Shown here piece after piece: positions 14,075 to 64,000 of a DNA stretch of 64,000 nt. The translations under genes were made by a program, and so were the position numbers. The stretch is from Apilactobacillus quenuiae (lineage in GTDB: Bacteria > Bacillota > Bacilli > Lactobacillales > Lactobacillaceae). The notes beneath the pieces are model-generated. The model made no database searches. It was not told the origin of the DNA and saw only the letters and a program-made list of their open reading frames with translations. The DNA is taken from contig NZ_POSN01000002.1 in NCBI RefSeq assembly GCF_002994005.1, forward strand, positions 65,855 to 129,854. The letters are read 5' to 3'. Position 1 is the first letter of the stretch; each line of letters begins with the position of its first letter.

Positions 14075-15358
14075 TTAGTCTTCTTTAATAATTTTCTTCA
14101 TCCCATGCATATATGGTTGTAATACTTCTGGAATATCAACAGTACCATCTTCATTTTGATAATTTTCCAAAATAGCTGCAACTGTTCTACCAACAGCAAG
14201 ACCTGAACCATTTAATGTATGCACATATTGTAATTTACCATTTTCATCACGGTATTGGATATGAGATCTTCTTGCTTGAAAATCAGTTGTATTTGAACAA
14301 CTTGAAATTTCACGATAACGACCTTGAGCAGGCATCCAAACTTCAAGATCATGCGTCATTGCAGCAGTAAAGCTCATATCACTAGTAGTTAAAGTAATAA
14401 CATGATATGGAATTTTCAATAGTTTAAGTAGTGATTCAGCATGTTCAGTAATGCTTTCTAATGCATCCCATGAATCTTCAGGTTTAGTAAATTGTACCAT
14501 TTCAACCTTGTTGAATTGATGCAAACGAATCAAACCACGAGTATCACGACCAGCACTACCAGCTTCTGATCTAAATGCAGGAGTTAAAGCAGTAAACTTA
14601 ACTGGTAACTTTTCAGTTGGAATAACATCATCACGATAGTAGTTAACTAATGGAACTTCCGCAGTTGGAATCATAGTTAAATCACTATCAGCTATTTCAA
14701 AACCGGCTTTATTTTCTAAAAATTTAGGAAATTGTCCAGTTCCATACATTGAAGCTGAATTTACCATGTATGGTGGTAAAACTTCAGTGTAACCAGCTTT
14801 ATCGTTTTGATCTAAGTAAAAATTATATACAGCACGTTCTAACTTGGCACCTGCACCCATGTAGTATACAAAACGACTACCAGCAACTTTAGCACTAGCA
14901 TCAAAGTTTAAAATGCCTAATTTTTCACCAATATCCCAATGATGTTTTGGTTCAAATTTGAAATCACGTGGTTTACCAATTTTGCGTAATTCTACAGCTC
15001 CTTCTTCAGTCAAGCTTTCGGGAACTCCATCTGCAGGAATATTTGGCAAATGTGCAGCTAAATCATGTTGGTCTTTTTCAGTTTTTTCTAAATCAGCATC
15101 CAATTGCTTGATGTCAGCACCAACTTGTTTCATTTCATTGATAGCATCGGTAGCATCTTCTTTATTACGTTTAGCTTCAGCAATTTTCTTAGATGCTTTA
15201 TTCTTATTAGCTTTTAAAGTTTCACTCTTAAGAATTAATTCACGACGCTTTTCATCATATCCAATTAATTCATCAATAGTTTCAGCTTTAATGCCTCTTG
15301 TTGCCAATCTGGCCTTAATAAAATCAGGGTTTTGTCTAATCATTTTCATGTCTAACAT
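14075..15358 (-). CDS. serS: Serine--tRNA ligase
   Basis: Charges tRNA-Ser with serine in the cytoplasm. The 427-residue protein has the N-terminal antiparallel coiled coil that grips the long variable arm (about residues 25-105, rich in Lys, Glu and Ala), then the class II catalytic core with motif 2 [20 protein letters not shown] (about 263-282) and motif 3 [18 protein letters not shown] near residue 385. Length is normal. The ATG is preceded by AATAGGAGG. A T-box leader lies directly upstream, so the gene is induced when tRNA-Ser is uncharged. Confidence 0.98.
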
Positions 15359-15384: not shown

Positions 15385-15602
15385 TAAAAAAGAAGGCCTC
15401 ATCCAATTGGGACGAAGGCCTTCTTTTCGCGGTACCACCCAAGTTCTTAGTTATAACTAAACACTCGTATCGTGATAACGGTCACCTTCCGTGTAGCATT
15501 ACCTACCCGCTTTTCGTATGCCGGAAATTTCGACTTGTGATTTCCACCAACCATCACATCTCTTGATATCTACTAATAAACATACATCGCGTTTACATCT
15601 AT
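15385..15602 (-). ncRNA. T-box leader of serS
   Basis: The minus strand carries the invariant T-box sequence GGGTGGTACCGCG (plus 15427-15440) followed by a strong terminator, AGAAGGCCT/AGGCCTTCT (15391-15399 and 15415-15423) with a T run. The upstream 150 nt contain Stem I hairpins such as GTGAT...ATCAC. The T-box can pair with the 3' end of uncharged tRNA and form the antiterminator. I could not assign the specifier codon with confidence; serine is inferred from the downstream gene. Confidence 0.93.
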
Positions 15603-62024: not shown

Positions 62025-63650
62025 ATGAAAAAAAATAATAATTCAGGAAAGATAGGTTTATTTCAGATTGTAATGTTGGGACTTAGTTCCATTATTGGTT
62101 CAGGTTGGTTATTTGGATCTTGGGAGGCTTCCAAGGTTGCAGGACCAGCTGCTATTCTATCTTGGATCATTGGTGCTATTGTTATTGGTGCTATTGCATT
62201 CAACTATATTGAACTTGGTTCTATGTTCCCAGAAAGTGGTGGAATGAGTAAATATGCTCAATACACCCACGGTTCTTTACTAGGATTTATAGCTGCTTGG
62301 GCTAACTGGGTATCATTGGTTACTTTGATTCCAATCGAAGCAGTTGCAGCGGTACAATACATGGGTTCTTGGCCTTGGAAATGGGCACACTGGACACATG
62401 GATTCTTGGTAAATGGTGAAATATCCAATACCGGTTTATTTGTCGTTTTTCTTTTCATATTAGTCTTTACATTATTAAACTATTGGTCTGTTAATTTATT
62501 AGCTAGATTCACTAGTTTTATTTCAATTTTTAAACTAGGAATTCCATTATTAACAATAATCATGTTATTAATGTCTGGTTTCCACTCAGGAAACTTTAAT
62601 TCTCAAGGATTTATGCCTTATGGTAGTGCTGCTATTTTCTCAGCTACAACTGCTTCTGGTATTATTTTCTCTTATAATGCATTCCAAGTTGTTATCAACA
62701 TGGGGAAAGAAATTAAAAATCCTAAGAGAAATATTGCATTAGGAATTACAATTTCACTTGCAATTAGTATTGTAATTTATGTTCTATTACAATTTACATT
62801 TATTGGTACAATTGTACCTCAAGATTTAGCAAACGGTTGGCATGGAGTTGATTTCCAATCACCATTTGCTGATTTAGCTATCTTGCTAGGTATTCATTGG
62901 TTAGCCGTATTATTGTATTTTGATGCTTTTATATCACCATTTGGTACCGGAGTTTCATTCGTTGCTCAAACTGGTCGTACATTAGCAGCTATGGTTCAAA
63001 ATGAACACATGCCTAAGTTTATTGGTAAAATTAATAAACGTTGGGGTGTACCAAGAATGGCTATGGTAGTTAATCTTGTAATTAGTGTATTATTAGTAGC
63101 AATATTCAGAAGTTGGGGTACACTTGCTAGTGTTATTTCTACTTCTACTTTAATCGCTTACTTAACTGGTCCAGTCACGGTTACTGCACTAAGACAAATG
63201 GCACCAAACTTCAAGCGTCCTATTCGTTTGAAGTTACTAAAAGTTATGGCTCCATTAGCCTTCGTCCTTGCTAGTTTAGCAACTTACTGGGCAATGTGGC
63301 CAACAACTGTTAAAGTAATTCTTGTTATCTTGCTAGGTTTACCATTCTACTTCTACTTTGAATGGAAGACTGGTTGGAAGAAAACTAGAAACCAATTTAC
63401 TGGAAGTTTCTGGATGATTGGTTATTTAATCTTTATTTCAATCATTTCTTACATGGGATCAACACCATTTGGTGGTCAAAACTGGATTCCATATCCATTA
63501 GACTTTGTTGTTATCATTATTTCATCACTTGTATTCTACAAATGGGGAATTTCAAGTGCTATGGTAACTAAAGATCTTCACAATGCTAAAGAAGTAAATG
63601 ATGAAATCAACTTAGAAGATTTCGAAGATGAAGACAACAAAGATAAATAA
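62025..63650 (+). CDS. APC-family amino-acid permease, aspartate:proton symporter-like (YveA/AspP type)
   Basis: 541 residues with about 12 membrane segments. The opening VMLGLSSIIGSGWLFGSWEA (about residues 16-35) is the signature of the YveA-like branch, whose Bacillus member is an aspartate-proton symporter. Conserved INMGKEIKNPKRNIALG (near 225) and a soluble acidic C-terminus (EINLEDFEDEDNKDK) are visible. GAAAGGAGTATT precedes the ATG. It is one gene with its own promoter and terminator. Substrate aspartate is inferred from the family and not certain. Confidence 0.87.
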   Translation: MKKNNNSGKIGLFQIVMLGLSSIIGSGWLFGSWEASKVAGPAAILSWIIGAIVIGAIAFNYIELGSMFPESGGMSKYAQYTHGSLLGFIAAWANWVSLVTLIPIEAVAAVQYMGSWPWKWAHWTHGFLVNGEISNTGLFVVFLFILVFTLLNYWSVNLLARFTSFISIFKLGIPLLTIIMLLMSGFHSGNFNSQGFMPYGSAAIFSATTASGIIFSYNAFQVVINMGKEIKNPKRNIALGITISLAISIVIYVLLQFTFIGTIVPQDLANGWHGVDFQSPFADLAILLGIHWLAVLLYFDAFISPFGTGVSFVAQTGRTLAAMVQNEHMPKFIGKINKRWGVPRMAMVVNLVISVLLVAIFRSWGTLASVISTSTLIAYLTGPVTVTALRQMAPNFKRPIRLKLLKVMAPLAFVLASLATYWAMWPTTVKVILVILLGLPFYFYFEWKTGWKKTRNQFTGSFWMIGYLIFISIISYMGSTPFGGQNWIPYPLDFVVIIISSLVFYKWGISSAMVTKDLHNAKEVNDEINLEDFEDEDNKDK

Positions 63651-63709: not shown

Positions 63710-63738
63710 TTGACTTTTATAAGATGTAATTTTAAAAT
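63710..63738 (+). promoter_or_regulatory. Promoter of the right-edge leader transcript
   Basis: TTGACT (63710-63715), 17-nt spacer, TAAAAT (63733-63738). The expected start is near 63745, just before the ribosome-binding site of the leader peptide. Confidence 0.72.
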
Positions 63739-63769
63739 TAATATTAATAAATGAAAGGAGAAAGAGTCC

Positions 63770-63829
63770 ATGAGAAATATTTTAAAACATTTATTATTAG
63801 TTTCTACTTGGCAAAGCTGGTGTTATTAA
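63770..63829 (+). CDS. 19-residue leader peptide of an attenuator
   Basis: ATG at 63770 with GAAAGGAG 9 nt upstream; product MRNILKHLLLVSTWQSWCY, then TAA. It is too short to be an ordinary gene but has a full ribosome-binding site and promoter. Its stop codon touches the first of a series of alternative hairpins, so ribosome position on this peptide can decide which hairpins form. Two Trp codons, one Cys and one Tyr codon cluster at the 3' end. Such leaders control amino-acid genes or antibiotic-induced ribosome-protection, ABC-F or methylase genes; which applies cannot be seen because the downstream gene is outside the window. Confidence 0.72.
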   Translation: MRNILKHLLLVSTWQSWCY

Positions 63830-64000
63830 ATCGCATTAATATATACAGATGCGATTTAATTAGATGTCTATATAATTAAGCGCATCTGTACCGGCTTCTT
63901 TCTCGCGAATAATAAAAGCCTGTGCGGAATAAATTCAAAACACCACAGGTATTGATATAACTTTTAATTAAGCGGATAACCTGTAATGTTTGGGTTATCC
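63828..64000 (+). promoter_or_regulatory. Attenuator with mutually exclusive hairpins and terminator stem
   Basis: Five pairings are visible. (1) AAATCGCAT with ATGCGATTT (63828-63836/63849-63857). (2) TACAGATGCG with CGCATCTGTA (63844-63853/63881-63890), which competes with (1). (3) CCTGTG with CACAGG (63919-63924/63944-63949). (4) ACAGGT with ACCTGT (63945-63950/63979-63984), which competes with (3) and (5). (5) GGATAACC with GGTTATCC (63993-64000), a terminator stem whose T run would lie just past the window. This is a textbook attenuator layout. The region is less AT-rich than its surroundings, suggesting acquisition. Confidence 0.7.

Follow-up and report, generated by a model that had tools for sequence, protein, structure and literature searches.

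A likely ribosome-mediated attenuator of the tryptophan transporter operon trpXYZ in Apilactobacillus quenuiae

The window, a 64,000-nt stretch of Apilactobacillus quenuiae DNA, ends in a short translated leader followed by a series of competing hairpins. This raises two questions: which gene does the leader control, and what signal does it read? An earlier note, made from the window alone, had proposed a leader-peptide attenuator and named Trp codons and a ribosome-targeting drug as candidate signals. The attenuator design with its competing hairpins, and the Trp codons as signal, are supported by the analysis described here. Together, the data make it very likely that the region controls transcription of the tryptophan transporter operon trpXYZ by ribosome-mediated attenuation, with the Trp leader as its sensor. 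The parts of this device, the gene that it precedes, its conservation, the matching of codons to genes and the co-variation of its pairings can all be read from the sequence.

The leader and the operon beyond the window edge

The features of the leader are collected in Table 1. The promoter with its 17-nt spacer, the ribosome-binding site, the 19-codon peptide and the terminator arms were recovered where the earlier note had placed them, and re-reading gives the same terminator stem, GGATAACC/GGTTATCC. A T run had been expected after position 64000, and GCTTTTTTATT stands there, directly 3' of the terminator 3' arm and just past the window edge. From its ATG to just past this run, the leader is predicted by folding to be more stable than 200 of 200 shuffles (z -4.73). 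A strict promoter pattern is found 5' of the leader at 23 of 63 family loci, the window locus included. The gene upstream of the leader (62025-63650, plus strand) stops some 60 nt short of the promoter; its product resembles amino-acid permeases, the best match being TIGR00909 at 184.8 bits, below its cut-off.

Table 1. Leader features at the right edge of the window, in window coordinates
Feature	Position	Strand	Sequence and remarks
Promoter, sigma-70-like	63710-63738	+	TTGACT 63710-63715, spacer 17 nt, TAAAAT 63733-63738
Shine-Dalgarno of leader peptide	63754-63760	+	AAAGGAG
Leader peptide gene	63770-63829	+	ATG 63770; MRNILKHLLLVSTWQSWCY; 19 codons; TAA stop 63827-63829
Trp codons in leader peptide gene	63809-63811 and 63818-63820	+	
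Segment A0	63814-63821	+	AAGCTGGT; within peptide gene; partner C2 in the untranslated leader
Segment A	63826-63836	+	TTAAATCGCAT; 5' arm of first hairpin; overlaps stop codon
Segment B	63846-63862	+	Partner A or C; inside the weak RF04312 match
Segment C	63873-63888	+	TAATTAAGCGCATCTG; partner B
Segment C2	63890-63897	+	ACCGGCTT; partner A0 or D
Segment D	63916-63927	+	AAGCCTGTGCGG; partner C2 or E
Segment E	63940-63949	+	ACACCACAGG; partner D or CCTGTAATGTTT 63980-63991 (proposed antiterminator, a weak pairing in the window itself)
Intrinsic terminator hairpin	63970-64000	+	AAGCGGATAACC...GGTTATCC; runs on as GCTTTTTTATT past the window edge

An inducible gene had been predicted beyond the edge, and the first downstream gene does begin there on the plus strand: its start codon (ATG, window coordinate 64053) lies 53 nt outside the window. 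This gene is trpX: its product scores 451.6 bits with NF041285, where the cut-off is 390, and shares 95% identity with its closest named relatives, the TrpX proteins of Apilactobacillus micheneri and A. timberlakei. It is followed by a BPD_transp_2 permease gene and an ABC ATPase gene; the three are read as trpXYZ, a tryptophan ABC transporter operon. Because trpX opens this operon, the evidence supports tryptophan, rather than a drug, as the signal.

T-box control of the trpX locus was ruled out: there is no match near C2:129.5 kb, though the genome scan gave 24 T-box matches, 8 of which exceed the cut-off. One T-box match below the cut-off lies elsewhere in the window (15405-15596, minus strand; G000:C2:81259-81450) and precedes a 427-aa ORF at 14075-15358 on the same strand. 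A more balanced base composition had also been claimed for the leader, with horizontal transfer as its explanation. Neither idea is supported: the GC content of 63710-64000 is 0.289, below the 0.322 of the whole window, and leader and trpX occur together in 11 of 11 Apilactobacillus sequences.

The expected conservation of peptide and hairpins is seen in these 11 aligned sequences and, in outline, across the Lactobacillaceae, where TrpX is present in 230 of 251 genomes. Of 75 regions upstream of trpX from the family, some of which represent one species in two collections, 63 carry a Trp-containing leader by an automatic rule; the rate in shuffled sequence is 2.3%. Four extra regions (L144, L088, L105 and L108) have matching sequence by eye, outside the limits of the rule. 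The leader was not found in 8 of the 75 trpX upstream regions, one of which has only 24 nt upstream. Typical leader ends are WQSR, WQSW and WQSQ, so that a WQS(W/R/Q)-like end is recurrent. In 49 of the 63 leaders the last 9 codons hold a single Trp codon, which would make for weak sensing if the number of codons were all that mattered. Two successive terminator-like hairpins are seen in 12 of 22 representative trpX leaders, among them L145, L148, L150, L153, L094 and L095.

The trpB motif and the matching of codons to genes

An Rfam scan of 4 kb, with E values up to 5, returned a single match: RF04312, the trpB motif, at E 0.25. Over the 401 bases scanned, the window leader scores 31.7 bits and does not reach the threshold of 59 (L002 2697-2869, where an L002 coordinate is the window coordinate minus 61145). 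In appearance, the window leader is related to the motif but diverged from it. Since only one of the 20 Lactobacillaceae sources scanned passes this threshold (L147, 60.1 bits), the model misses most of them. The trpB motif (SRC-39-1) was published by Narunsky and colleagues in 2024 (PMC11109978), who count over 900 instances, from Firmicutes and Fusobacteria, mostly before an uncharacterised ABC transporter, and consider it a strong riboswitch candidate, with a classic attenuator not excluded. The term "leader peptide" is absent from the main text of that article (PMC11109978). At the loci read here, the RF04312 model begins 3' of the peptide stop codon; structure-only motif models can omit the sensing peptide.

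Scans for RF04312 gave matches in 19 of 398 genomes at class level, in 27 of 29 genomes of one family and 104 of 105 of another, in 4 of 398 genomes of the phylum (one of them found before) and in 1 of 5 in the family of the hisZ locus described below. The 134 loci examined include, from the 104/105 family, 30 matches listed with their loci, 3 already known from the class scan and 60 more, taken not strictly by score, and leave out four matches without a locus from the 27/29 family. The gene 3' of these loci encodes TrpX in 114 cases, TrpB in 3, TrpP in 2, AroE in 3 and HisZ in 1; for the remainder, the gene is unassigned in 6 and no gene was found in 5. Seven matches (L025, L026, L028, L042, L212, L218 and L219) were taken as chance. 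In one genome, two trpB-motif matches lie on the same strand at a distance of about 3 kb (G818:C22:490788 and 493822), and similar pairs occur in G825, G832, G836 and G837.

At each locus an upstream ORF was chosen by Shine-Dalgarno score, then ATG, then length, together with stop position; its content was ignored. The Trp-type set comprises 118 of the 119 TrpX, TrpB and TrpP loci, the other having no upstream sequence, and was compared with 2360 shuffles. A Shine-Dalgarno-led upstream ORF is present in 117/118 (31.9% of shuffled upstream regions), Trp lies within the last 10 leader codons in 115/118 (shuffled, 3.3%) and at least two Trp occur there in 110/118 (shuffled, 0.13%). The common C-terminus is W-Q-x-W-R, and a WQxW leader also precedes 6 of the 11 loci without an assigned gene (L012, L016, L074, L172, L185 and L188). 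The codon after the first Trp is CAA in 58/63 family leaders and 102/115 RF04312 Trp leaders; at 63812-63814 and the homologous places, the proposed pairings account for this constancy only in part.

Four of the 114 TrpX loci have no Trp in the last nine codons of the chosen upstream ORF: L023, L027, L041 and L167. L041 lies near a contig end, where no upstream ORF was chosen, and at L167 the wrong one was chosen, a WRNWRR reading being visible at the locus. The other two encode diverged TrpX-like proteins, at 384.2 bits for L023 and 254.2 bits for a 300-residue piece of L027, each below the TrpX cut-off of 390; their leaders end in Tyr/Phe codons (YYFSYFR and FYFSYFR, respectively). Tyr/Phe leaders likewise precede aroE at 3 of 3 loci (L046, LYFSYYR; L052, FYFSYYR; L215, YYFSYFR). 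At the single hisZ locus (L020), where a 300-residue piece of the protein scores 200 bits and the cut-off is 271.65, the leader carries HHHH, and in a distant family a Phe-containing leader, IFFNNHFR (L217, G1263:C31:23891-24011) precedes an SNF-family sodium symporter gene. These non-Trp variants are few, and several genes were scanned as pieces, which places some scores under whole-protein cut-offs.

Alternative pairings and the position of the ribosome

If attenuation is mediated by the ribosome, the leader is expected to respond to tryptophan through three states. When charged tRNA-Trp is scarce, a ribosome would pause at the Trp codons, covering A0 and leaving A free; A would then pair with B and release C, which could take D, so that the terminator would be disfavoured and trpXYZ transcribed. 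When tryptophan is sufficient, the ribosome would stand at the stop codon and cover A; B would pair with C, and the terminator would form. When the leader is untranslated, A0 would pair with C, and the terminator would form in this case too. We infer the pausing, the folding order, termination in the cell and, in the lineage of the window, the last step of the relay (E against the terminator). In related families the trpB motif would follow the same logic through a shorter relay, with sensing codons suited to the gene.

The competing pairings are borne out by co-variation, the check that the earlier note had suggested. Pairing partners were exchanged between dissimilar loci in an alignment-free permutation, for 39 representatives of the 108 of 122 RF04312 loci that have a terminator at the expected place. 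Five pairings co-vary, with A0:C, A:B, B:C, C:D and D:E each reached by 0 of 5000 permutations; relatedness is only partly controlled here, as such permutations leave some shared ancestry. Control pairs among the same 39 representatives are without co-variation (A:D 4923, B:E 1965, A:C 1555 and A0:B 1478 of 5000). In 22 Lactobacillaceae representatives, A0:C, which corresponds to A0:C2 in the window, again gives 0/5000, with A0 and its partner reading AAGCCGG/CCGGCTT, AGCCGA/TCGGCT and AGCCAAC/GTTGGCT in individual members. In L006, C2:D is kept by a two-sided change, from GGCTT:AAGCC to AGCTT:AAGCT, and a U-G pair of A0:C2 is changed to U-A.

A further pairing involves the leader ribosome-binding site. 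The Shine-Dalgarno region at 63758-63768 is complementary to 63893-63904, around the end of C2. In the 22 Lactobacillaceae representatives, this region pairs with the stretch after C2 at -11.5 kcal/mol with its own partner and -8.6 kcal/mol with permuted partners (0/5000); of the controls, one is flat (4125/5000) and one carries some signal (62/5000). The pairing is weak in the RF04312 representatives (37/5000, with three controls flat). Its role may be to close the leader once the decision has been made, and the E. coli trp leader is masked in a similar way.

The predicted effect of ribosome position was examined by folding the sequence up to the terminator 5' arm with the bases under the ribosome omitted. 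In 122 of 123 gene-assigned RF04312 loci (L041 excluded, L167 included with its wrong upstream ORF), the terminator 5' arm is engaged upstream at 0.70 with a stalled ribosome, 0.41 with one at the stop codon and 0.41 when untranslated; with shuffled linkers, the first two values are 0.49 and 0.47. Engagement is higher in the stalled than in the stop state at 119/122 loci, by more than 0.2 at 80, and reversed at 1. The 39 representatives behave similarly (0.70 stalled, 0.44 stop, 0.35 untranslated; stalled above stop in 36). This points to the three states set out above: read-through when stalled, termination at the stop codon, and termination via A0:C without translation. The earlier note had a ribosome stalled near the end of the peptide disrupting the first hairpin. 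This is probably reversed: judging by the folding, the first hairpin can form while the ribosome is paused at the first Trp codon and is covered once the ribosome stands at the stop codon.

Within the Lactobacillaceae the predicted state effect is modest. For the first terminator-like hairpin, counted only with a start 78 nt or more downstream of the Trp codon, 22 family representatives including the window give 0.63 stalled, 0.50 stop and 0.29 untranslated, with stalled above stop in 19/22, by more than 0.1 in 11, and reversed in 1. An earlier pick of this hairpin (0.50 stalled, 0.36 stop, 0.32 untranslated; 20/22) was discarded, as it overlapped C in 7 of 22 cases. The second terminator-like hairpin shows no clear switch in the family representatives that have one (7/12).

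Equilibrium folding of the 11 Apilactobacillus sequences gives a mixed picture. A0:C2 reaches 0.85-0.88 in 11/11 when untranslated, and B:C reaches 1.00 in 11/11 in the second-Trp and stop states. With the ribosome stalled at the first Trp codon, C2:D takes values between 0.02 and 0.94 and exceeds those of the other three states in 10/11; in the window itself it is 0.06 with the first Trp codon stalled versus 0.28 with the second. In four relatives (L084, L085, L006 and L141) folding removes the terminator when the ribosome is at the stop codon, contrary to the model, and in L006 it does so in every ribosome state. In the window's own leader, equilibrium folding shows no switch, the terminator having a probability of 1.00 in all four ribosome states. 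A simple antiterminator on its terminator 5' arm gives 0.64 at the first Trp codon, 0.46 at the second and 0.54 at the stop codon. Because this is unclear, a relay through E was considered, which the folding supports weakly as acting against the terminator in the window's lineage.

Rival readings and known systems

Three other readings of the locus have to be weighed. A drug-inducible resistance leader of the erm, cat, ABC-F or tet(M) type, the earlier note's other candidate, shares in outline the short leader peptide and competing hairpins, but no resistance gene follows; the presence of trpX, a permease and an ABC ATPase rules this reading out for practical purposes. It is very improbable that the RNA is instead a riboswitch binding tryptophan or a related metabolite, with the peptide incidental. 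The authors of the trpB motif speculate on a riboswitch and describe two hairpins with an antiterminator (PMC11109978); against this, almost all of the Trp-gene loci examined have the leader peptide, its sensing codons vary with the gene, and the co-varying partner A0 sits within the peptide codons.

Peptide arrest is a slightly better, though still unlikely, candidate. Here, by analogy with TnaC, the comparison system for such arrest, the nascent peptide would arrest the ribosome through the conserved Trp-Gln pair, and one Trp codon would be enough. The constancy of CAA after the first Trp codon and the many leaders with a single Trp codon are consistent with this proposal. However, the codons become Tyr, Phe or His before other genes, and the residues after WQS (R, Q or W) vary together with segment C, their partner in the RNA, as would be expected if pairing of the RNA, and not the identity of the peptide, is what counts.

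Ribosome-mediated attenuation is the preferred reading of the window locus. Its extension to the whole motif is probable: the trpB motif would be one leader-peptide attenuator family, its specificity reset by codon swaps (Trp, Tyr/Phe, His, Phe). Compared with E. coli trpL its parity would be reversed, and it would have an untranslated-off state and, in the Lactobacillaceae, a later segment that shuts the leader ribosome-binding site. This offers a testable answer to an open published question, what the trpB motif senses. The data also suggest that the Lactobacillaceae, in which T-boxes are common (as the 24 matches in this genome indicate), widely use a translated Trp leader for the tryptophan importer, and that one RNA frame serves several amino acids through codon replacement, a natural test of ribosome-mediated sensing. 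In the open-access literature, no published account was found that describes Trp leader peptides for trpX of Lactobacillales or treats the trpB motif as a device built on a leader peptide.

Leader-peptide attenuation itself has long been known, and for Firmicutes, leaders of the His type have already been published. Those attenuators, on hisS/hisZ and his operons, resemble the present leaders in using leader peptides with sensing codons in place of T-boxes (PMC2965389; PMC9413887); as described there, they differ in being His-specific, and "tryptophan" has 0 occurrences in PMC2965389. In Streptococcus suis, the same trpX operon is more active at low tryptophan, but carries a T-box (PMC9382623), whereas the window locus has a leader peptide and no T-box match. 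The RF04312 motif also precedes an amino-acid ABC transporter gene or trpB, and combines a P1 hairpin and a terminator with an antiterminator in the right shoulder of P1; the window leader differs in scoring below its threshold and in having an additional relay before the terminator. Finally, E. coli trpL-type attenuation shares with the window leader its Trp codons, competing hairpins, terminator and termination without translation. In contrast to trpL, the sensing codons here precede the first arm, so that a pause would free this arm and a ribosome at the stop codon would cover it, giving the device the opposite parity.
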